The position numbers were made by a program, and so were the translations under genes. Below, piece by piece: positions 2,221 to 64,000 of a stretch of DNA of 64,000 bases. Source of the DNA: Tubiluchus corallicola (taxonomy: Eukaryota; Priapulida; Priapulimorpha; Priapulimorphida; Tubiluchidae); assembly GCA_030141605.1 (NCBI GenBank), contig JAQGDQ010000523.1, forward strand, positions 56,803 to 120,802, in the 5' to 3' direction. The stretch's first letter is position 1. Every line of letters begins with the position of its first letter. The notes under the pieces are model-generated. The model saw nothing but the letters and a program-made list of their open reading frames with translations. It did no database searches and was not told where the DNA came from.

Positions 2221-5200
2221 GTAAGATTTTCAGTTACGATTGAGTGCTTATGATCATATCCTAATATTTAATTTGTTTCTATGCTCATCTGTACTTTTTA
2301 TCTTACACTTGTGTGTTGGTACCTAGGACTAGTAGTGGTAAATACAGTGTTGACTGAGTTACAGAATACAGAGATGCACTCTCAACAGTGAGTCCGTGAT
2401 AAGCATTAATCTAACAACTGCCAGCTTAACCTTTGTTGCCTTTCCGTTCTGTCTACTAGGGAGTATGTGATTTTTCGCCTTGGCTTCTACAGTGGCCCGG
2501 ATTTGAAAAATTGTTAGAACTGCGGCTGTAAAAATTATATATGTCATGAACATTTGCAGTTTAGGTGTAGTTAGGCAAATAGGGCGCTATTACACTTTTG
2601 CACCGCCTAGTTTTTTTCTAGCCTATTGGTTGTTTTCACGCCTGCAGGCCAGAAAGCAGACCAACAGGCGTAATATACACCATATTCCCATAATATTATT
2701 GGTTTTTAGACCTTACAATTCCAGATTAAAATCATACATTACTTACCGTCACCATCACGCAAAAAGCTCCACGTGAATAACTGTGTTTACACCTCTAATG
2801 CGCAATCGCTCTCGCGCAGTGACGATGTGGCCCTTTACATGTATTTTTAGTTTCTTCGCATAATTTATGATTATTAGGGTTGCAGCCACGGGAGTTTGTA
2901 TCGTATCGCGGGTGGGCCTGGAACGGAACACTCACAATAAGTGAGGGAACACTGTATATAATAATTAATTACAAGCATACATATCTGTTTTTCATGTATA
3001 TTAAGTTGTTAGCTGGTCAACTTGTAACAAAAAATAAATTGCTTTCAATATTAAAAATATGTATGTTTATTTTTATTGTATTTTCCGGCTATTTTTTATT
3101 AAACTTACTAAGTGACATCATCACTACCTATCAAATCGTCACTATCATCACTGCCATCGGTCGTAATGTAGTATTATTACTATTAGATTATAAAAAAAGT
3201 AAAGGTTTTTTCGTTATTTCGTAAATGCGGTCAAGATGAAAGTGTGTCACGTGCCTTTTAAGCTAGGCCCTGATAATGCATAAACTACTACGAAATTCGT
3301 CACGTGACTACACACACAAACAAGATGGCAATACGAACTGTATAGGTGTAGAACTGTGAATACAACGTAATTATTGGTAATTATACCTAAATATATGATT
3401 AAATTACCACGAGATTAGCGGAAACATTCACTGATGACGTGAGAATAATAGAATAATGACCTACGAGCCTAGAAACGAGTAATAACCTAGAAAAAACTAG
3501 GCGGTGCGAAAGTGTAATAGCGCCAGCAATTTGTGCCCAAATTATGTAAGAGTCTCTGTTATATTTGGTCTTTTTTTGTTATTAATTCTTTATTTGTCAT
3601 TAAAATGGTTCACTCATTATAATAAAATTGAGTAAGCCTCAGCGTAATGTTAAGATAACGACACTGTTCAAGACAAATGCCGTGCTTAATGCCATCTTGT
3701 TGTGTATTTGATGAAACTGTTCATCCCAAGTGAGTTTATTAACGACAGTAATGCCTAAAAATTTTACATTTTTTGCTTGTTCTATGGAACAGTCGCCTAC
3801 TTTTAGTGTTGCATTAGAATATATAATGTCATTTGATTTGGGTGATGTTACCATAAATTCTGTCTTATCATCATTCATTTTTAAACCAAAATAGTTAAAT
3901 GCTGCATTTATATTTGTTATGTCTTTTTCTAGATTATTTTTTGATGTTAGAAAGTCTGCGTGTGCTGTATAGATAGTTGTGTCATCGTCATATTGTGTTA
4001 AGTCTGAATTATGTAAAACTAAATGAATTTTATTAACGTGTAAACAAAAGAGTAAAGGACCTAATATCGTACCTTGCGGGATGCCTCTCTGTGGTGTGTC
4101 CAATGTTGAAAAAGTGTGTTTGTTCAGCTTGACTCTTTGTTTTCTAGTGTGTAGGTAATTATGAATTAGTTTGAGAGAAGTATAATCAAATCCTAGTTGG
4201 CGTAAGGTGTCTAGTAGTAAATTGTGATCGAGGCTGTCAAAAGCTTTACTTAGATGGAAAAATACTGCTGTTATATATTTATTTTTATTTAAGTTGTAAC
4301 GCCACTTGATTTTCAGTGGCACCAATTATTGCGTCTATTGTAGAATGTAGTATTCTAAAACCGAATTGATGATTTGATAGTATCACTATTTTCAATGTAA
4401 TGGTTTATTTGGTTATAAATAACTCTTTCAAATACTTAGGCTAGTACATGCACTACTGAAATTGGTCTGTAGTTTTAGCGTCATCTTTAGCATCTTTCTT
4501 GTGTATTGGAGTCATGTTTGCTTGTTTACACACTGCTGGAAATTCTGAGCGCATTAAGACTTGGTTTCTGATATATGTTAGATGAGGAGCAATGAATCTT
4601 TAGATCTTTGTATACTTTTCAAATTTACCTTTCAAAGATAATAACTCAGCTGTCCACATGGCTTTGATGCCGAGCCCTCAATTTGCTCGTAATGCACTAA
4701 TCACATCTCCTGGCAAGGCATTCCAGCAGGGAATAATTCTTTCAATGAAAAAGTGACTACTTACGTTAATACAATAGAAACTTTGGAACAGTTTCATCGA
4801 ATGTCTACTTAGATCATAGTGGCAATGAGTTGGAAAGAAGAAGACAGCTTTACTCAAGATGATCAACTCGTTCAAAATTTTGAAACAATGAATAAGATCT
4901 ATAGTTTTGCATCTCTGATAGAGTGGGGTAATGTCTTCAGCTTGTTCGCAGTCATAACTCAAAGGCAACGACTCTGAAACTTTTTAAGTCCAAGTAAATG
5001 TGAGATTTCTCAATTCTATACTCCGAAAGGTTCAATAATCAATTTCCACATTGCAAGATGTTCCTTCAGGAATGAACTTAGTATCTCATGACAAAGCAAC
5101 TCTGTTTGGTACACCTTTGGGCGATCATGCCATTTTGCCTGTTTAGGGAAAAAATTTAGATCAATTAATGCTTTTTCATTCTTCGGCACATGCTGCATGA

Positions 5201-8200
5201 ACGTACTTCAACATTGTTTCTCGTTTCCAAAATTGGTCCATATGTTGAGATCTAAATCCGTTTTCCAAACTACATTTAGCCAATATGACTCTGTTCTTTG
5301 TGAAACTCTTCAGATTATACTAAACATACATAATTTATGTCTGATTCAGTTGGTGACAAGCTTCCTTGGCAGTTTCCAAAGGAGGACTTGGTATAAGAAG
5401 TACCACTCAGCTATCTCTCCCAGCCTTTCTGGCATCATCTAGTGGTTCTGCTTCTTTAGTACACAAAATCCTTTCCAGAGTTCCCACTGCTAGCTCTTAT
5501 GCTGCTTTAGATTTAGCAAAATCGATCTGGTTGGAAAAGTTGAAGCATTTGTAACAACCTTACCTGGTACATCTTCCCAAAAATTTTGGGATAAATCTCT
5601 AATCGAAGCATCATTTGATAGTTTGTTTGCCAGGATTTCTGAGGTTGATAAAGCACTGCTATTGCCAATGGCTTCTAGACATGCTGGTGCATGGCCTGAT
5701 TCTAAGTTGTTTAAAAAGCAGTGGTCGGTTTTTGAAATATCAGGCTGCCAATGATTTGATATGTTGTGCTTTAACTTCTCCTCATGTTGCTTCTGTGTTA
5801 GAGCCCACAAGGTTTGCCTAGGTCAGATGGCAAAAGGCCTGTCCAAATGCCTTTTATTCCTTGGACCAAACGTCGTTCACTTTTTTGGGATTTTGCTTGT
5901 GTGGATACATTGAAATCTTCAAATTTTGCTGTTTCAGCTGGTTCTCTAGGTTATGCGGAAATTAGGAAGTGGGAAATGGGAGATTAGGTCAACAAGTTTT
6001 TTTATTTCAAGGTTTATCCATTGCTTTACAAAGAGGTAATGCGATAAGCATCATGAGAACAATCCCTCCATCTGAAAGACTTGAAGAGGTTATGACCTCC
6101 TTCAAGTCTTAATACCGTCTCTTTCTTTTGGGAGCAATCTGAAAATTGTAAGCTGAAAGGTTTAAATAGTTAACTGTACTATTGTAACTTTAAATGAATG
6201 TATGATGATTGCTAATCATTGCTTTTGAATACTGTTTATTTTACCTAGTGTAGAGTGAATATGGTTATTAGCATTTCAAGATGTCTATGATTTGTATGTA
6301 AACCTAGTATAATATTTAATATACAGTCAATTTGTGATATTTTTGCATTGATTAATGGCAGTTGTATCTCACCAGCTCTGCACCTGTAAATTTCGGTAAT
6401 TGTTTGATTTTTTATGTGAATCGAAGCTGTTTTAACATTAAAATTACGTTACATTATTTGCCATCTCAAAGTTGAAAGATAGTAGCAAGCAAAATATCTT
6501 GATTGTTAAAATTTTTTAACATAATATCTCTGTTTTGCCTAACACAAATTTAGCATGTACACATTAAGGTAGCAGTAATGTCTAACCATCATTTAGTAAC
6601 CTTTAACTTATTTCCTGTGATGTGTCACTAAAGTTTGCTTAAGTTTTCTCTAATCTGCTCCCAGAGCTTTCAAGACAATGATGTGTGATGTCGACCTACA
6701 TCTAGATCTGTGTGCAAAATTTTTGAGAGGAAGTTGAAAACTAAAAATGTGTGGTTCACTGCATATGTCTGTTAGCTATGGTTCCATAGTGATACATAAT
6801 TTGAATTTCTTCATGTGGTAAATTCATTGAGTTAAATTATGTCATGAATGTACAAGGTTGTACGAAGCTGATTGCTAACATGGTGTGGACTATTAGTAAA
6901 TTGATAATAATGCATGCATAATGCTAATATAAAAGATATTTAAATATCAATTAATGTTAAAGGTGGTATGCACTGCTATTCTAATATATGAAAATATTTT
7001 ATAATATATTAAAATGTATAATGAGTTACTACTGAGTAATTGTTTATGGTTAAACTTTACAGCTCGCTTTTTGTTTACATTTAAATGATGAACAGATATT
7101 CTATTTTATTTTCAGAATTGTTTTTATAGCAGATAGCATCATTAGATGAAAATAACCAAGTTGATATTTCAATTTGTTATTTTCATCTTATGTGTGTATT
7201 TGGCAATGATGCCACATTTCATTAATTAATTCTAACGTGATCTATCTTGATATCATCATCATATTTAATTGATGCTGATCAACAAATTTGTTCTTACAGG
7301 GGAACGAAAACTCTCTACCAATGGAAATGTGCAGTCACTGTAAGTTTTCTACTATTTAAGTATTGATATAAATGGTTGCTACTTTTATGCATGTTGCTTT
7401 TTTAAATCCTTTTTTCCAAAAGAAACTGAATTTGTCTACAAAGAAGTGTAGCACAAGTAGATTTGAAGTGAAAATGCTTTCTAGTTAATTTTAGTTATTG
7501 CATCTTGAATTTTTAGAGTGTTGATATAAATATTGCGCTCTGGGCTAATAATAATTTATCCTTGTCACAGTGGATCTTGAGTAAATTATGTTTAAACAAA
7601 CACACAGCTTAGCTCTGTAAACATTGTGTTTACGTAAATGTCATCTGCGCTTGGATATGTCTGGTGTAGCCCTTTTAATTATTATCGTGTGCAGTTTACT
7701 TGTTGACGGTCAACAACATGCTATGTGCTGCTTTATCTTTGGCTCAAAGTCTATCCTGCTGCACGTCAGAATTATCCTTTGCTGAAACCTTAGTTCATTA
7801 TTGCATTGCCACTTGTGAGTTGTTGACCTGGCAAGCTCAAGATTGTTATTGTTACTGTGACTGTGGAAACAATTCAGAACATGCCGAAGTTTTTTACGAA
7901 GATGTTCGGCACGCCGAGCAGTGGAGAAACCGAAAAGTCTACTTATGGGAAACAGAAAAGTAAATACCGTGTTGCCGAGCTAAAATCACGCTCTCGTCAG
8001 CATCGAAGCAACAGTCTGCCGGTAGCTGAAGTCTCTGAATTACCGCAGACAAAATCAGTTCGAGAAGCAAGAGTTCGGAGCAACAGTCTCACTCTAGAGG
8101 TGCCAGATATTGTAGAAACCACACTGCCTCTGGACGTTGAATACATCAAAACTCCTCAGATGCAAACTCTTCAGGTGGCAGAAGATGGCAAGCTAGATGA

Positions 8201-11200
8201 GCGACTTCCAAGCATTACTGAAACTACTGAGAAAGAGCAAAATGCAGATTTAATGAATGATGACAGTCCATTAGATATTTTAAACCTTGTCCCACGTGAA
8301 TGTACGTGTCGACAACTTACGTAATGATGTAAAACATTTGCTTATGAAGCTACATATTGATTACCTTTTTCACTTGCCAGATACTGTCATAAAACAAAAG
8401 CTAGGTACTGGTACTGGGTACCACAAACATTTGCTTATGAAGCTACATATTGATTACCTTTTTCACTTGCCAGAAACTGTCATAAAATAAAAGCTAGGTA
8501 CTGGCACTGGGTACCACAATTTTTCATTGAAGCGATGCTTAAAACAAAATTCAATTTCGTTCTACTTTTGTTAAGCTGTGTACTGGTATTCTTGCATATG
8601 TCATTATAATTCTCTTTTGATGTTTGATTTTAGTTGACGCTGATGAAATTAAGCGACTGGGTAAGCGCTTTCGAAAGCTCGACTTGGACAATTCTGGTTC
8701 CCTTTCTGTCGATGAGTTTATGTCACTTCCTGAATTGCAACAAAATCCTTTGGTACAACGGGTAATAGACATATTTGATACTGATGGAAATGGAGAAGTC
8801 GATTTTAAAGGTTTGTAATAATTGTATTAGTAAAAGGTTTAGTATTACTATATTAAATCATCTTTAAGCTTACAGGCACTGTCAGCCTTTTTTGTAATGT
8901 CTGATCCAAGTGAGCCAGATGTCTTTTCGAACTTCCCAATGCCATTTCATGATGTACACATGCTTTATATACGTCCGCATGTGACAATGGTACCTACCCA
9001 GTTTGTTGTCGCATTGGCCAACAGGCCTCGTTGTTAAAGCACAAGAAAAAACCCTTCATAAATAGAACCTAAAAAAGTCGTGTCTTAAAATTTTATATCA
9101 TTTACTTGTTGTCTTATAGGGTACAGAGCTTGTATTAGCACTAATGCTGTATACAACTTGTGTATTTAAACTCCCGCGATGACCGTTAGGCGCAGCCATT
9201 TTAATGGCAACTCTTTTGCTACAAGTTTAGATAACATTGCGTAAAGTTTGAAAAACATTCACAGCTTTCATTGCACACTTTTGACTAACTAAGCAAAAGT
9301 ATATATTACTTTATCTTGTCAGTAAGATCAATAATGTCTTGGTTAACAAATGACTCACAGTGGGATGGTAATGCAGTGCTGTTTTACCAGGCAGCATGAA
9401 TGTCTTCAATTATTAAGAATTTTCTTATCCAATTACATAAGTCCTTCAAACAGCTAAATGTAATGCTAAGTAATATAACTTGATGCGTAAATTTTTTTGA
9501 GACGTACAAGTGCCATATTCCAACTTATGCTGCACCAAACCATTCATAAATGTAACATGTTGGATCTGGTGAGAATTGTTTTCATAAATAATCATTTGAA
9601 TTCGTACAAGAGAACATGATACAGAGAAGGATTTGTAAAATCTTAGTTTCGGTTATTACCCATGGATTTCTAACTGCTAAATATGAATGTGTTATTTGCT
9701 CACTGGGCAACGAGGTTGCTTACATATCTTGTTTGTTTACGTGTTTGCAGAATTTATCGAGGGTGTCTCACAGTTCAGTGTGAAAGGAGATAAGGAATCC
9801 AAACTCAGGTGTAAGTGCGCATTTTTGTTTACGTACATAATTTTTAACTGATTTCATCATTTTTACTGTGTTCTTTTGCACTCCATGCTTGTCATTTTAT
9901 GCTTACAGTTTCTAATTATTTATATATAGTCTTAATTACAACCTTATTAGTAATGATGGAACAAATCTGCTATGCAGTAGGTGCCGCTTAATAGACTCAC
10001 TCTGGGACGGAAGTGTCTTGACCCAATTAATCAACTAAATCTGTTAACCGACAGATGTAGTATTACTAATATAGAAGTATGAATCGTCGGTTTAGTGGGC
10101 AATGCAAAGGCTTTTAATGAATTTTAGAAACGAAGTAATGCCTAAACTCCTGTGTAATCATTAAAAATATTAATTTATAAAGTGAGTTAATAAAAAAGAA
10201 AATAGAAAAAGTTTGCTTTTTCATACAAGTGTGTTTATTTCCAAAAATTGCATAAATACGACCAAGGTCAGCTTCTTCATTTTTTGCACCAAGTTGGGTC
10301 AGAAACTCTCATAATGATAAAAACGTTGAAAATCTGTTGTTGTATGGTGCACAAATTCTCGTAAATAATTTAGTGCTTGGCATGCTTAAAAGTCAAAAAA
10401 GCATATTGGTCACATGAAAATGTCTTATTGAAGCATGCAGAGCAAAAATATTGAGTCAGTTATGCAGAGTTATTTGAGTCTCTTGTGGACAGTTTTTGCA
10501 TACATTTGCATAGAAGCGGCCGGTACCAGACGTTTTTGAGTCTATTAACCAGGAATCTAGTAAATGGTGCCTACTGTATTTAAATTTTCTGAAACCAATG
10601 TCAACTACATTGAAAGAAATTTCCGTAACTTTCTCAAACAAGGACTTTTGATTACGTCCAAATTTCTGACCACTGGACTGCGTCCAAATTTCTGACCATT
10701 GGACTGCTCATGTGCTTGCAATCTGAAAGTTGATTGCAAGATAACTAAGTGTGATCCAGGGTCTAACATGATTGTTTAATAATCCAAAGGTCAGTGGTTC
10801 AAACTCGAGTTCATCCCGTCTTTTTTGCACTTCCTATCTTTCTGCTGAATTTGGTTTTGCAAGAAAATCAATTATTCTGGGTTTATTTACCATGCCAACG
10901 ACTTTTTTTGAGGTAATAGACATATTCAGTTCACTGTTTTGAAACTACCTGTTTGACTTACCTTGAGTGAAAAGGAAAAATGCCTGCTTGTCTCATGACC
11001 AGATTAAAGAGCTGCATGGTGTATTAGGATCATTTATATGGTACAGTGTTCCCTCACTTATCATGGGTGTTCCATTCCAGGCCTACCTGCGATAAGTGAA
11101 TTTCCGCGAAGTAGGGACGCTATACTTATTTTAGTAGTTATACATTATTTTAAGTCTTTATAAACCCAGAAACCGTAGAAGTTGCAGAACGTTTGGGTGG

Positions 11201-13790
11201 CATCGAAGGGCTTGAATAAATTCAGTCTCTAACGAAAATTTCACAAATAGCGTACACAAACTACAGATGAAAACTACACACACGCGACAGTCGGATGCTA
11301 ACGTGAAATGGAAGAGCTGAGAGGGTGGTAGCTGCACACAGTGAAAGCAAACAAATTGCACGGTATCTCACGGTCGGCAAGTAGCATCTCAAGCGGGCGC
11401 AAGTACTACATTTCGTTTTTGGTGTGTTTTCATCCGCCGAATAAATACACTATTTACTGTAACTGGTAATTTTTATGATTTATAATATTCTTTTAATGTT
11501 AGAATTAATATTTTTAATATATTTTTATGCATTTTGAGATTTTTTATTCAAAATGCATCAAATCTATACAATTACTGTACAATACGTACTACGCACGTGC
11601 TTGTACTACGCATGTACTACGCAAAATACTTCAGATGGAGTACCGCGAAACAAGTAAAATACTGCGATAAATATTTTGCATTAATATTTTTGAAAACCCG
11701 CGAAACAGCGTGTCCGTGATAAACAAACCACGAAGTAGCGAGGGAACACTGTATATTTAATCTAACAACACTTTTGCGTTGACCATAAGTATCTGCTAAG
11801 GAGCACAATTTTGCACAAGTTATATTTTCCATATTTGATTTTATAAAATTAAGTTATATAAAACATTACATTATTGACTTTTTATTTAGTTTTTTTCTGT
11901 TGTTTCTAGTTGCTTTCAGAATTTATGACATGGACAAAGATGGCTATATATCAAATGGGGAACTCTTCCAGGTAAAAACTTATTTGCGACTTTGGCTTTA
12001 AAAAATTCCGAGCCTAATTTGAGAATCCCACAAGGCTGCTTCTGATAGTTAAAAATAAATTTCTATTTCTCTTTTCTCATTCTTCAATTAACGGCATCTT
12101 AACTTATGATTGCTTTGCATGCAAGGGTTGCAGTCATACTAGCTTTTCAGTTAGCCCGTCATTACTATGCTAACATATTTGTTGCGCTACAACTTACAAG
12201 CTGACTCTGAGTGGTATATCTGACTGCAAACGTGATGTAAAATCTGTACACCATGAAGAGGCTGCCAGTTTGTTTTTTGCACATTATTATATTTACATTT
12301 TGACAATTGAACATTGTGTTGTAAAGACACAAAGAGTAAAAAATGTTTCAACTTGCTACTTAGTTTCTTTGTTTATATTGCAACTTAAAGGAAGACAGGA
12401 TGATTTTTCACGTCCTACCCCATTTTCAAGTCCGATAAAAAATACATTTTAACTCGACTAATATTGCAAAAGCGTTTCTTATAATTAAATAATAGATTAA
12501 AAACTTAATTAAAGGAGAGCGAGCCTAACTATTGATGACATCACAAACTAACATAATTTTCAACAGCAAAAATATTCCATGAGTGTGTTTGCGAAAGTGA
12601 GGACTACTGTAAGATATTCAGTGTGTTGTACTAAAACTAGACAAGTTTTAAGATAAAACTTCAGATTTTAAATTTACCGCTGTGCTTACACGTGAGCTGT
12701 CGAACGTGTGTAGTTCGTCAGAAACTAACACATCTGAACTGAGAGGTTCAGTATCTGTTTTTTGTGCAATGCTATTCCAAAATGCAAGTGCTAGTGCCTA
12801 TCTAACTAGTGAATGGTAAAATACATGTAACAGTGAAGAACTAGAGGCACGAATGTTAATTATGTTTATGTGGTAAATAATTCTTTCACGAAAGTCATTT
12901 TTGAAAAAACAGTATGTTTCCTTTCAATATTTAATGAGTAGATTGTTGTGACCTTCAGTTTTGCTTTAATTAAACTTGTACAGCAACATAGGGGCTTCAG
13001 TACTTCAATACATTAGACGATATTTTGACCAATTGCATGCCTGGGTTAGTGTTATACCTCACTAGCTATGCAGGACACACGCAACTGCATTTTCTTTGCT
13101 ACATTATGAGTTCAGAACTGATTCATTTTAGTGACATTTTTTGGTTTTGCACTAACGATTTCTTCTTACAGGTATTGAAAATGATGGTGGGTTCAAATTT
13201 GAAAGACACCCAGCTCCAGCAAATTGTTGACAAAACCATTATCTATGCTGATAAAGACAACGACGGAAAAATCTCATTCGAGGAATTCTGTACAGTAAGT
13301 TTTCTTGCGCATTAATATTAGAGGTGCATTCAAATTATACACAGTGTCAACAACGACGTTTGTTTACCAATTACTCTATGGATAGTTTTCACATTTATGT
13401 AGAAAAAATTTGCAGACTAGGTGGGCCTAAAAGTGTATGTATTATAAGTCAAATCTATGCTGGTACCCCATTGTTATTGAATGCCAGCATGATTGCGCCA
13501 AAGAATTTTATGTTGAAAAAATGATCATAATTGCTTTTTACCAGTGTGCACTTAATAGCATTACCATTACTCAAGTGTGGTTTTTTGTGCATATGTATCT
13601 TCAGTTTTCAGTGTTATAAATTACTAATTTGTTGCTGGTTTACAGTGCTTTTTCCATTTTTAATGCTTCTAAATTGATTTTATTCATCATTAGTTTGACC
13701 TAATAGTACTTTAAGTGCATTTAAAATGTTTTCTTTATTTAGGTGGTTGGCAATACAGATGTTCATAAAAAGATGGTGGTGGACGTCTAA
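2218..13790 (+). CDS. PPP3R: Calcineurin subunit B (Ca2+-binding regulatory subunit), complete
   Basis: Calcineurin B is the regulatory subunit of the Ca2+/calmodulin-dependent phosphatase calcineurin and binds the catalytic A subunit through four EF-hands. Seven exons (2218-2220, 7300-7339, 8634-8810, 9751-9810, 11910-11971, 13172-13294, 13743-13790) join with matching phases (0,1,1,1,0,0) and canonical GT-AG sites. They give exactly 170 residues, the length of the vertebrate protein. All four EF loops are intact: [48 protein letters not shown]. The C-terminus is HKKMVVDV. The N-terminus MGNENS fits an N-myristoylation signal. Similarity to human PPP3R1 is very high by eye. A second, alternative N-terminus is described at 7881-8301. 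Confidence 0.96.
2888..2954 (-). mobile_element. Solo end of the CAGTGTTCCCTC terminal-inverted-repeat element
   Basis: The sequence up to 2954 (GAGGGAACACTG, then TA) is the reverse complement of the left end of the full element at 11044-11751. It shares the inner motif of a Gly-rich-looking GGCCTGGAACGGAAC. Only about 65 bp match, so this is a fragment. Confidence 0.6.
3639..4600 (-). mobile_element. LINE reverse transcriptase fragment (CR1/Jockey-like)
   Basis: The minus-strand frame 4325-3639 shows RT signatures: [32 protein letters not shown], then the catalytic box as [21 protein letters not shown] and VKFLGITV. Upstream, 4326-4600 holds degraded frames with [16 protein letters not shown] and HQFGF, so the RT core extends rightward with stops and frameshifts. 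The catalytic box reads YDDD where relatives have YADD. No endonuclease is visible. A dead copy within calcineurin B intron 1. Confidence 0.8.
4678..4968 (-). mobile_element. LINE ORF2 C-terminal fragment
   Basis: A 96-codon minus-strand frame with the pattern of the post-RT region of CR1/L2/Jockey LINEs: [17 protein letters not shown], then hydrophobic KILNEL, then [18 protein letters not shown] (relatives end in VWNSLPxxVVxA). It lies upstream of the RT piece on the same strand, the wrong order for one element. It therefore probably derives from a different insertion. Confidence 0.6.
5340..6112 (+). mobile_element. Degenerate LINE 3' ORF fragment, plus strand
   Basis: Broken plus-strand frames carry FQRRTW / [19 protein letters not shown], later [29 protein letters not shown], then [15 protein letters not shown] and SIMRTIPPS. 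This series of motifs is typical of the region after the reverse transcriptase in a LINE lineage common in marine invertebrates. At least three frame changes and stops show it is dead. Lineage name not assigned. Confidence 0.6.
7300..7339 (+). CDS. PPP3R: Calcineurin B coding exon 2
   Basis: Acceptor TTCTTACAG, then [13 protein letters not shown] plus one base, donor GTAAGT. It supplies Gly2 and Ser6 of the myristoylation signal. Phase 1 out: its last T joins TT of exon 3 to make Phe. Confidence 0.93.
7881..8301 (+). CDS. Candidate alternative first exon of calcineurin B (140-aa N-terminal extension)
   Basis: An open frame starts at ATG 7881 (A at -3; in-frame stop upstream at 7824) and runs 140 codons to PRE plus one T at 8301, where GTACGT is a plausible donor. 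The phase-1 T joins exon 3 exactly as exon 2 does, giving [12 protein letters not shown] in place of [12 protein letters not shown]. The product would be about 296 aa with all EF-hands and no myristoylation site. The extension is hydrophilic and Ser/Arg-rich at first ([20 protein letters not shown]), acidic later. A weak acceptor at 7877 would also allow ATG (exon 1) to splice in frame. Joining exon 2 to that acceptor would give an immediate TAA, so the exon could not simply be added after exon 2. I recognise no homologue of the extension. Coding status is inferred. Confidence 0.5.
8334..8519 (+). repeat. Tandem duplication, 2 x 93 bp
   Basis: Two nearly identical 93-bp units (8334-8426 and 8427-8519), beginning ACATTTGCTTATGAAGC and ending GGGTACCACAA. 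They differ at only a few positions, so the duplication is recent. It lies just after the donor of the candidate alternative exon and before calcineurin B exon 3. Confidence 0.9.
8634..8810 (+). CDS. PPP3R: Calcineurin B coding exon 3 (EF-hands 1 and 2)
   Basis: Acceptor GATTTTAG, phase 1 in and out, 177 nt. Encodes [20 protein letters not shown] through [12 protein letters not shown]. Donor GTTTGT is a weak match but gives the conserved KEFIEG junction. Confidence 0.95.
8811..9750 (+). other. Calcineurin B intron 3
   Basis: About 0.94 kb of AT-rich sequence in which I see no gene or clear repeat. Confidence 0.7.
9751..9810 (+). CDS. PPP3R: Calcineurin B coding exon 4
   Basis: 60 nt, phase 1 in and out; acceptor GTTTGCAG, donor GGT|GTAAGT. 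Encodes [20 protein letters not shown], the linker between the two EF-hand pairs. Confidence 0.94.
10655..10706 (+). repeat. Direct repeat, 2 x 26 bp
   Basis: CGTCCAAATTTCTGACCA.TGGACTG-type unit twice in tandem with one mismatch. Confidence 0.8.
10749..10815 (+). repeat. tRNA-like SINE head (degenerate)
   Basis: Contains a B-box-like GGTTCAAACTC (10796-10806) preceded by TAATCCAAAGGTCAG, an arrangement like the variable/T arm of a tRNA, and a T-run shortly after (10821-10826). An A box is poor. More likely a SINE or tRNA pseudogene than a working tRNA. Confidence 0.35.
11044..11751. mobile_element. TA-flanked terminal-inverted-repeat element (non-autonomous, 708 bp)
   Basis: Left end TA|CAGTGTTCCCTCACTTATC and right end GCGAGGGAACACTG|TA are inverted repeats bounded by a TA duplication, the layout of Tc1/mariner/pogo-type elements. 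No transposase frame is visible inside. A solo end of the same family is at 2888-2954. Confidence 0.75.
11910..11971 (+). CDS. PPP3R: Calcineurin B coding exon 5 (EF-hand 3)
   Basis: 62 nt; acceptor TTTCTAG, donor CAG|GTAAAA. Encodes [21 protein letters not shown], the third Ca2+ loop. Confidence 0.95.
12385..12969 (+). mobile_element. TTAA-flanked inverted-repeat element, copy A
   Basis: 585 bp bounded by TTAA on each side. Left end TTAAAGGAAGACAGG; reverse-complemented right end TTAAAGCAAAAC. It belongs to a five-copy family in this window (also 34923, 47776, 55325, 55991). The TTAA target and short inverted repeats suggest a piggyBac-type non-autonomous element. Located in calcineurin B intron 5. 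Confidence 0.78.
13172..13294 (+). CDS. PPP3R: Calcineurin B coding exon 6 (EF-hand 4)
   Basis: 123 nt, phase 0; acceptor TTCTTACAG, donor ACA|GTAAGT. Encodes [20 protein letters not shown] and [15 protein letters not shown]. The LQQIVD-KTI segment is part of the A-subunit contact surface in the family. Confidence 0.96.
13743..13790 (+). CDS. PPP3R: Calcineurin B coding exon 7 (C-terminus)
   Basis: Acceptor TTTATTTAG, then [15 protein letters not shown] and TAA. One residue differs in spacing from the vertebrate [15 protein letters not shown] pattern, with total length unchanged. Confidence 0.95.
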   Translation: MVGNTDVHKKMVVDV

Positions 13791-17260: not shown

Positions 17261-18021
17261 TACCCTATATGCTGCAGACGTCCTCGACAGTGCCCTTGCA
17301 GCACATGCCTTAACGGTGTTGGTACTTTCTTGCCCACTGTTTAACTTTTGGGCAGGCTTGCCACTATCTTCTTGATACCATACTGACTCCGTCAGTTTTT
17401 GACTTGCATGATTTCGTGCATTATTGTGCTTACGACTGTCATGCTACTTTATAATTGAGATTTTTCCATAGCAAAATTTACTGTTTTTTCGTACAGTTAT
17501 TTATCGTAAGCCTTGCAACTAGGGTCACCAAACTCACCGGGTTGGTAGCCTTGTGCGGGAACGAAGAACAATGTGGCGACCACTGATAGGGCAGTGGGTA
17601 TCGGTCACTCCTAGGACTTTTGGTTTTTTCTATTTTTTTCACAAGTATTTGGGTACTATGGGATAGATGTGTACCTAGGCTTTGAAAAAGGTGGCAAATT
17701 CTAAATGCCCGAGGGAGGGGCCAAAATGCAAAGTTTTGGGTCCCACCAATTGGTGACCTTTTACATGCTAAGGGCTAGGCACACTCTGGGCAAAGTTACC
17801 TGTGTATACATGTGACCTGAGTTGCCACGTCAAAGGTCGCATAGCGGGCAGGTCTTCATTTATTTTCGTTTATGATCCATCTGCTCCTATAGTTCACAGC
17901 GAGGCCATAATATTTTGTATGTTGGTAGGCAGGGTTGCACACTTGTATATCACAAAATATGGGACATGCGCGTATGAAAAAATTTTCCGCTAGGGGGCAA
18001 AAACCGAAAAATGCGGGTCGG
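17261..18021. other. Intergenic flank of hAT copy, unassigned
   Basis: No coding region recognised. The last 30 bases (17993-18018) contain a GGGGGCAAAAACCG motif that recurs beyond the transposase at about 19257 and 19400. Confidence 0.5.
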
Positions 18022-19219
<1,198 letters not shown>

Positions 19220-20941: not shown

Positions 20942-22515
20942 TTTTAATCGGTTGATAATGGAATTTGGAGGAGCACTGCACCGGGCCCTGCAGAAGATAT
21001 GCATATTATACCCAAGTTTACTGTTAGAGAGGTGCAAGATGCAATCGGCTCACTAACTTTGCATAAATCTGCAGGTCCTGATGGTATACAGGCCGAACAT
21101 TTTAAGTATTCTTCCTCAATGTTACCGGTTCTTTTATCCTTGTTGTTTAGCTCCTGTTTGATTCACGGCTTTCTTCCTGAATCGCTAATGATGTCTGTAT
21201 TAATTCCTCTAGTAAAGGATAAAAATAAAGATATTACGGATGCAAATAACTATAGGCCAATTGCACTAGCTTCTATTGCCAGCAAAATATTCGAAATTTT
21301 ATTACTTAACAGATACAAACAGTATATTCCAACAACTCCTAATCAGTTTGGCTATGTAGAAAAACTTGGCACTGAAATTTGCATAAACACATTAAAGGAG
21401 ATCATTGACTACTACATTAGTCGTGATAGCTCTGTTCACATTGTTTTTATCGACGCATCAAAGGCATTTGATAGGGTTAATTTCTTCAAGCTTTTTCTTA
21501 AACTCACAAAGACTTCAATCCCGAATATTGTAATCCGCTTGCTCACATTTTATTACACGCAGCAAGGCATGTCTGTCAGGTGGGGACATAGTCAGTCTAC
21601 AACTTTTAATATTGGAAATGGAGTACGCCAAGGTGGCAAGATGTCACCATTTCTTTTTAATTTTTCTTTTAAAGATCTAAGTGTTAAGCTTTCATCCACC
21701 CAATTTGGTTGCAATGTGTCGAACATGGTTATGAACCACCTGATGTACGCTGACGATGTTTGTTTGTTAGCAACAACGATTACGGCCCTACAGCAACTAC
21801 TAGACGTGTATAAATTGTATGCTGAACAGTATGACATAAAAATCAATGTAGCTAAAACTAAACTTATGTCTGTTAATTCAAACATCATGAGAAATTTTAT
21901 GTTTGGTAACATCAAACTAGGTAATAATGTTTTACGTACCTGTGATAATGAAAAATATTTGGGACACATTATTTCAAATGATAACCGAGATGACCTTGAC
22001 ATTATTAATCAAAGATCCCTATACTACTGTCGTGCAAACCAACTTATTAGAAAATTCAGCTATTGTTCTGTTGATGTTAAAATATATCTATTTAATACTT
22101 ACTGTAATACATTCTATTGCATGTCTACTTGGAGACATTTTAATAATGGTAATATCTTAAAACTCAAAATTGCGCACAATGTGTCAAAAAGATTTTTTTC
22201 GGATATGCATATGACTACAGTGCTCGTGAGATGAGTGTTGAAATTCACGTGATGTATTTTGATGTATTGCGTAGAAAATCTGTCTTAAGTTTAATGAAAA
22301 GATTTGATACTAGTGATAATTTAATGTGCCAGAAAATTTTAGTAAGCGATGCCAAATTTACATCAATAAGACAGCAATGGTGGAGACTATTATTGTAATT
22401 TTCACGTTTATCTAAGTTTGTGTGTGATTTGTTTGTAGTGTTTTTTTGTTTTTATGATGTTGTATGTTGTATATATGTAAATTATAATATGAACTTATTT
22501 TTGAAATAAAGAATT
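20942..22515 (+). mobile_element. LINE (non-LTR retrotransposon) with reverse transcriptase, 5'-truncated
   Basis: The frame 20999-22234 (411 codons) has the RT core in order: HKSAGPDGIQAEHF, VLIPLVKD, NNYRPIALASIASKIFEIL, NQFGY, VFIDASKAFDRVN, GVRQGGKMSPFLFNF, the catalytic LMYADDVCLLA, then ALQQLLDVYKLYAEQYDIKI and KYLGHIIS. After 22200 a frameshift moves the C-terminus (MYFDVLRRKSVLSLM, then RQQWWRLLL, stop near 22398) into another frame. The 3' end is GAAATAAAGAATTAAATCAA. No endonuclease domain is visible. The RT catalytic residues are intact, but truncation and frameshift make this copy unlikely to be active. Confidence 0.88.
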
Positions 22516-23338: not shown

Positions 23339-24379
23339 ATGAATCAACTGGATGACATCTTGGAACTTGCAGAATGGAAGAACTCCTCAGTAAGCCCAGA
23401 GCTGCACAATAAATCAAATTTTTCATATTCTCTTGATGACACTGGGCTCCACACGGGCTGCAAAAGTGTTTTAGAACATGACCTAGCTCATTTGATATCC
23501 AACTCAGTTAATCTATTACTCGGTGCCGGTATTGTAACTGGTAACTTTTTAATACTTATAACAATCATCTGCACGCCTTCACTTCACGAAGTGCCTTTCT
23601 ATTTAATTGCAAATCTGGGTGTCGCAGATTCATCAACCGGCCTAGGATTGGTCGTTCTGTTCGTGGGATTTCTGGCTGGTGTTCGATGCAAAATTATCTT
23701 CTGCACATGCGTCATTGGCCTAATGACGTTTAACATTTATGGTTCCATAACGCTGTACATGGCGGTAACGATCGAAAGATATATAGCCATTGTTTACCCG
23801 CTACACTATCCTAATTGGGTCACACAAAAAACTGGCAAAGTTGCTATTATTTTGACATGGGCTGTTACAATTCTTATGACAGTATCAGGTGCAATAACGT
23901 ATTATATAAGCGACTACACAGGATTATCTTGCATACATTTTTCCAGATATTTTGGCAAGCAAGTTTTTGCCGGAACCACTGGAATGGGGGCAATTCTCAT
24001 TCCATTGTTGGTATTTTGTTACTCTCACATTGGACTTGCCGCAGTGAGGCAGCAAAAATCTATTTCTGCTTTGAATAGCTTAAACCACAGTAGAGCGCCA
24101 CGAGGCGACGATTTCAAACAAAAGTTGAAAATAGCAAAAGTGCTTGGAATGACAGTTATTCTATTCTTAGCATTCTGGTTCCCTTTTTTAGTACTGCTTC
24201 CGTTCCATTATCTTTGCGAGTTTCACAAGTTGTGTTTTATAACAGTAAAAACTCAACTTTTGAATTTTACTTTGCTGCTAGGCATGTGCAACTCTTTCGT
24301 AAATGTGTTTGTATACTCGGGGAAATTAGGAACGTTTCGACGCGCAATGAAAGCCGTTATGTGTCGTAGACAAGGATGA
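23339..24379 (+). CDS. Class A GPCR, orphan, lysophospholipid/cannabinoid/melanocortin-like, intronless CDS
   Basis: A 346-residue seven-helix receptor. The N-terminus (about 50 aa) has three N-glycosylation sequons (N15, N24, N27) and no clear signal peptide. Landmarks: GN at 68-69 (TM1), NLGVAD with D97 (TM2), ERY at 146-148 (TM3), W174 (TM4), FWFP at 279-282 (TM6). In TM7 the NPxxY motif is altered to N322-V-F-V-Y326. There is no Pro at the usual TM5 position. Cys residues before TM3 are atypical. These traits and the TM2 sequence fit the MECA group (melanocortin, Edg/lysophospholipid, cannabinoid, adenosine). The tail is short and basic (FRRAMKAVMCRRQG), with a possible palmitoylated Cys342. 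A splice acceptor TTATTTTCAG ends at 23295, so a 5' UTR intron is possible. Ligand unknown. Confidence 0.88.
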   Translation: MNQLDDILELAEWKNSSVSPELHNKSNFSYSLDDTGLHTGCKSVLEHDLAHLISNSVNLLLGAGIVTGNFLILITIICTPSLHEVPFYLIANLGVADSSTGLGLVVLFVGFLAGVRCKIIFCTCVIGLMTFNIYGSITLYMAVTIERYIAIVYPLHYPNWVTQKTGKVAIILTWAVTILMTVSGAITYYISDYTGLSCIHFSRYFGKQVFAGTTGMGAILIPLLVFCYSHIGLAAVRQQKSISALNSLNHSRAPRGDDFKQKLKIAKVLGMTVILFLAFWFPFLVLLPFHYLCEFHKLCFITVKTQLLNFTLLLGMCNSFVNVFVYSGKLGTFRRAMKAVMCRRQG

Positions 24380-27031: not shown

Positions 27032-63581
<36,550 letters not shown>

Positions 63582-64000
63582 CTGTAACAGAGAAATGAAT
63601 AAGGATTGGAGTTTAATTGAAAATATACGTTTTGCATTACAGAAAATCTGCACTAATTATTTCAATGTGGAAATCATTTTAACTGCATTGTAGCTACTGT
63701 ATCTATTATTCTGTAAATATTGGGCCGTGTACAAGACTTCGAACCAACCTAGCCATATACCAAAAATTGTAGTCCCAGTTCAAAAAACTATAAACAGATA
63801 AACTAACTAAAAGAAAATGAAGGTCCACTCCACGGCGTTCTCAGACCACGTACAAACATAGTTGCCTTTGTTTAGGAAGTCTGCCTGTGAGTTTCGTGTC
63901 CCCAGCGCTGTGTGGTTCAAAAGGTCGCAAAAAGTGGGTATCACTCATTTTGCATTACCGCTCCCCCCCCCCCCCCACACCGAGTAGAAGTTTAAAACTT
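63582..64000. other. Right edge: ALK upstream intron, unassigned
   Basis: No exon could be connected to the MAM exon. A poly-C run lies at 63963-63977. A minus-strand stretch (63800-63960) is partly open but shows no family motif. Confidence 0.5.

Follow-up and report, generated by a model that had tools for sequence, protein, structure and literature searches.

Animals have a highly conserved calcineurin B, usually viewed as one short, lipid-tagged form. A variant from rat testis that was the subject of a 1994 paper, calcineurin B alpha 2, is said to have a different, longer N-terminus, and its extension is reportedly much shorter than the 140-residue head considered below. By the title of that paper, as given in the references of PMC5409981, alpha 2 is an alternatively spliced isoform (Chang et al., Biochim Biophys Acta 1217:174-180); PMC5409981 itself cites the paper for CaNB1 and CaNB2 as two genes. 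According to PMC8523714, an isoform-specific tail alters the location of another form of a calcineurin subunit, calcineurin A beta 1. Here, we analyzed a 64,000-nucleotide stretch of contig JAQGDQ010000523.1 from the priapulid Tubiluchus corallicola (the window), the plus strand of which carries an animal calcineurin B gene. Our analysis suggests that positions 7881-8301, between exons 2 and 3 of this gene, are probably a real alternative first coding exon, which we call exon 2b.

The predicted long form comes from the same gene as ordinary calcineurin B (PPP3R1, type 1), but it lacks the first 14 residues of that protein, including the myristoylation glycine, and has 140 others instead. It would resemble alpha 2 in being an alternatively spliced calcineurin B isoform, as far as the 1994 title tells; on the strength of that title, alternative forms of calcineurin B are not a new idea, and the kind has precedent. 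The sequence-only reading, which knew of no isoform with a long extension, overlooked alpha 2 and is corrected on this point. The head is proposed to set location as the tail of calcineurin A beta 1 does; however, the latter is a catalytic subunit, its tail is C-terminal, and palmitoylation is involved.

The frame of exon 2b starts at the ATG at 7881, remains free of stops for 140 codons to position 8300, and is followed by a T at 8301. The features on which the proposal turns are as follows.

7300 to 7339, plus strand: calcineurin B exon 2, encoding the ordinary N-terminus (spliced model).
7824 to 7826, plus strand: TGA, the first in-frame stop before the ATG at 7881, closing the frame upstream.
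7881 to 8301, plus strand: candidate for an alternative first coding exon (2b) of 140 codons and one further base, proposed from its open frame, phase and coding statistics.
8302 to 8307, plus strand: splice donor GTACGT in phase 1, with a score of 0.70, the fourth highest among 81 GTs in 7341-8629.
8634 to 8810, plus strand: calcineurin B exon 3, common to the short and long forms (phmmer match to 3ll8_B, E 2.9e-34; EF-hand models).

Exons 2 and 2b both end in phase 1, and each rebuilds a phenylalanine codon with exon 3. When exon 2b was joined in silico to exon 3 at 8634, the predicted product was a protein of 296 residues, in frame to the normal stop. Exon 2b thus combines its own start codon with a phase-compatible donor to the shared exon 3, the two properties looked for in an alternative first exon. 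These results bear out what had been read from the letters, namely an ATG-started frame of 140 codons between exons 2 and 3, closed at 7824 and ending at GTACGT, a phase-1 T that rebuilds phenylalanine as exon 2 does, and a product of about 296 residues. The long form would start with MPKFFTK and so lack the Met-Gly myristoylation site, which is present at the N-terminus of the exon 2 form.

The exons of the gene were rebuilt with an AG before each and a GT after all but the last. We did not identify exon 1, which should have ATG at its end, within the window; the pattern ATG-GTRDG gave two candidate positions there (2218 and 6880), and an ATG was inserted in place of exon 1 in the spliced model. 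The model continues beyond exon 3 with the following exons.

9751 to 9810, plus strand: calcineurin B exon 4.
11910 to 11971, plus strand: calcineurin B exon 5.
13172 to 13294, plus strand: calcineurin B exon 6.
13743 to 13790, plus strand: last coding exon of calcineurin B, with its TAA.

With the ATG assumed, the spliced short form has 170 residues, the size expected of a calcineurin B body (about 170 residues), and four stretches matched EF-hand_1. Its alignment with 1mf8_B (calcineurin B type 1) spans all 170 residues (E 4.1e-101), with 156 of 170 identical by our count from the alignment.

Our simulations showed that an open frame of this kind is rare within one intron. Stop-free stretches of 165 codons or longer arose on the same strand in 1 of 2000 introns of equal size simulated at order 2, in 1 of 3000 order-1 simulations of 7340-8633, and in 2 of 3000 order-1 simulations of the GC (guanine plus cytosine)-richer part at 7640-8330; an ATG-started run of at least 140 codons arose in 6 of 2000 simulated introns. 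A codon score was trained on 983 codons from the window, with exon 2b left out; the training set comprised calcineurin B, a rhodopsin-like receptor, and minus-strand frame pieces, one with a MAM match and the rest judged receptor-kinase-like by eye. The exon 2b frame scored 0.104 bits per codon, against a maximum of 0.023 for the five remaining frames of its DNA, and none of 3000 stop-free sequences modelled on the neighbouring non-coding DNA reached the exon 2b value. Among 2000 composition-matched stop-free shuffles, the codon-position asymmetry of exon 2b was reached by one, the content of D, E, K, R, S, T, P and Q (87 of the 140 head residues) was equalled in one, the absence of both cysteine and tryptophan was seen in three, and the low hydrophobic content was matched in 105. 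The window has 91 frames that are closed by stops at both ends and span 80 codons or more; ranked by best coding segment, the exon 2b frame was 16th of these. Six of the 15 frames above it are microsatellite frames, and the other nine lie on receptor, kinase/MAM and transposase-like frames, one of them read from the same DNA in a different frame; several of these nine belonged to the training set, unlike exon 2b. A long CT microsatellite at 59870-60260, which yields open frames in several phases of either strand, inflates coding scores. Judging over all tests together, we consider it very likely that the exon 2b frame is protein-coding; in this, the sequence-only reading is supported.

Splice sites were scored with hand-entered donor and acceptor matrices. 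The exon 2b donor (0.70) falls within the range of the five donors of the gene, the weakest of which scored 0.57 (at 8811) and the other four 1.80 to 2.32, and its phase fits exon 3, which supports the donor proposed earlier. Five GTs score above 0 inside 7881-8324, and only the 8302 donor and the GT at 8296 (0.4) are in phase 1. Between the donor and exon 3, positions 8332-8517 hold two tandem 93-base copies that are 97% alike and probably reflect a recent duplication.

Several observations weigh against exon 2b as a first exon. In simulated 64-kb windows searched on both strands, a stop-free run of such length was found in 12 of 150, and an ATG-started run of such length in 26 of 150, so that length alone is no proof of a gene. 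The codon score was reached by 167 of 3000 composition-matched sequences, a marginal result, and synonymous codon choice alone is not gene-like, 302 of 800 nulls reaching the exon 2b value. The best-scoring segment of the frame (7827-8210) starts before the ATG and ends short of the donor, and GC content drops after 8240, inside exon 2b. Three GTs outscore the exon 2b donor: one at 7815, before the frame, and two inside it at 8022 and 8175, which are in phase 0 and would therefore not rebuild exon 3. No convincing promoter was found for exon 2b, and its frame could belong to another transcript.

The window-wide simulations, the synonymous codon usage and the marginal codon score would also fit a chance open frame in a somewhat GC-richer part of the intron, with a chance donor at its end, and 6.1% of the 3546 plus-strand GTs in the window score at least as high as that donor. 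However, such a run is rare within one intron, the amino-acid make-up and codon-position asymmetry go beyond composition-matched controls, and the phase fits exon 3; we regard a chance origin as unlikely. It is similarly improbable that the frame, never joined to exon 3, belongs to a different gene lying within the calcineurin B intron, whether as one of its exons or as a short intronless gene that ends at 8322. Without splicing, the frame does run on beyond the donor to a TAA at 8322-8324, which gives 147 residues, and the rise in GC content starts about 240 bases before the ATG; nevertheless, a phase-1 donor scoring like those of the gene itself stands at the end of the frame, and the next known downstream exon, 332 bases on, is the phase-compatible exon 3. 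We give little credence to the idea that exon 2b is a second exon used in place of exon 2, which the ordinary exon 1 would reach through an acceptor before 7878, leaving exons 2 and 2b mutually exclusive and the usual start codon common to both. The phase would fit, since AAC ATG would continue the frame of an exon whose last bases are ATG, but the acceptor scored -6.65, which places it 17th among the 27 AGs in 7345-7900 and lower than any of the gene's six acceptors (-3.67 to 7.76), and exon 1 was not found in the window.

Because this acceptor is poor, a separate promoter or a 5' untranslated region (UTR) exon is the likelier route into exon 2b. Of the two routes offered by the sequence-only reading, the internal promoter thus stands, with the 5'-UTR exon beside it, and the in-frame acceptor at 7877 fares badly. 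A possible 5'-UTR exon could use better-scoring AGs, found before 7571, 7770 and 7423. Two TATA-like matches, at 7367 and 7525, are weak indications, since the plus strand of the window has 53 such matches. A two-boundary fit places the best GC segment of the intron at 7640-8213, and the upstream part of this segment is a further candidate.

7640 to 7880, plus strand: GC-raised stretch directly upstream of the ATG, possibly the 5' UTR or promoter of exon 2b.

A transfer RNA (tRNA) search found no tRNA gene.

If exon 2b is a first coding exon, its transcript would start from a second promoter or with a 5'-UTR exon located between exons 2 and 2b, the ATG at 7881 would be used, and splicing would link the donor at 8302 with exon 3 (8634). 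The product would retain the four EF-hands, and the short N-terminus with its myristoylation glycine would be exchanged for the 140-residue head. This head is probably disordered, with a basic first third and an acidic last third (11 basic and 3 acidic residues in the first 47; 4 basic and 12 acidic in the last 46). An AlphaFold model from the single sequence had a mean predicted local distance difference test (pLDDT) value of 57.1 and a predicted template modelling (pTM) score of 0.11, which fits disorder, yet such values are often obtained for lone sequences. We think that the head would most likely act as a targeting and regulatory tail, with the lipid tag removed. Three short motifs in it are relevant to this proposal.

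8004 to 8018, plus strand: RSNSL, followed by proline, codons 42-46; fits RSxSxP.
8076 to 8090, plus strand: second RSNSL, 24 codons downstream and without the proline, codons 66-70.
8094 to 8105, plus strand: LEVP, codons 72-75; fits the LxVP docking pattern.

RSxSxP is the 14-3-3 mode-1 pattern. RSNSLP, at codon 42, is its one occurrence in the head, and the pattern arose in 0.48% of 5000 shuffles of the head. The two in-frame RSNSL copies differ only synonymously (CGA/CGG and CTG/CTC), and any repeated 5-mer was seen in 60 of 5000 head shuffles. A flexible chain carrying both sites would be suited to a 14-3-3 dimer, although the second site has no proline; once phosphorylated by a basophilic kinase, the sites could hold the dimer and so place the phosphatase. 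A more elaborate possibility is that the head is a built-in calcineurin switch, in which LEVP, just after the second RSNSL, would vie with substrates for access to the docking groove until the head is phosphorylated and drawn away by bound 14-3-3, the B subunit thus carrying a phospho-site and a docking peptide in cis. We hold this to be very doubtful; LxVP appeared in 6.5% of head shuffles, which makes the LEVP motif alone weak. The PxIxIT docking motif was absent from the head, where only the degenerate forms PDIVET and PSITET occur; 8% of shuffles contain such a pattern.

Searches with the head returned no Pfam match above the cut-off (the nearest was cwf18, E 0.51, 11.3 bits against a cut-off of 26.1) and no PDB sequence match up to E 10. 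No relatives were found in viral contigs or prokaryote genomes, where none were expected. A transposon or repeat origin was considered and rejected, as blastn and tblastn showed no second copy in the window; the best window matches to the head region were of 17 and 20 bases only (E 0.44 and 0.13).

Elsewhere in the window, a single open frame of 346 residues at 23339-24376 on the plus strand matched rhodopsin-like receptors (Pfam 7tm_1, E 3.9e-33). Scattered minus-strand frames at 27032-63656 may be exons of a receptor kinase, perhaps of the ALK/LTK type; they include MAM matches at 52869-53243 and 63331-63612, as well as glycine-rich and kinase-like pieces recognized by eye, and the minus-strand pieces at 27035-27667 and 34705-34944 had no Pfam match at 0.001. 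Reverse transcriptase frames (Pfam RVT_1) at 3642-4325 on the minus strand (E 2.5e-20) and at 20951-22231 on the plus strand (E 2.1e-29) probably belong to non-long terminal repeat retroelements. Plus-strand frames at 17978-19073, which we take to resemble a ZBED/hAT-type transposase, had no Pfam match at 0.001 in the larger frame (18243-19070). A stop-free minus-strand frame of 150 codons at 35052-35501 likewise had no Pfam match at 0.001; peptides judged similar by eye recur at 47776-48102 and 56047-56325, so that it is likely part of a dispersed repeat.

Among the literature matches listed, which consisted of titles and abstract openings and had most subscription journals outside their coverage, none apart from the reference to alpha 2 described a calcineurin B whose N-terminus is altered or long, and no 140-residue calcineurin B head was described. 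The role of the myristoyl group of calcineurin B remains to be determined according to one review (PMC8583826), and the long form, if real, would bear on it. A long phosphorylatable head without a lipid tag would then mean that the B subunit offers a way to set where calcineurin is located and how it is controlled.
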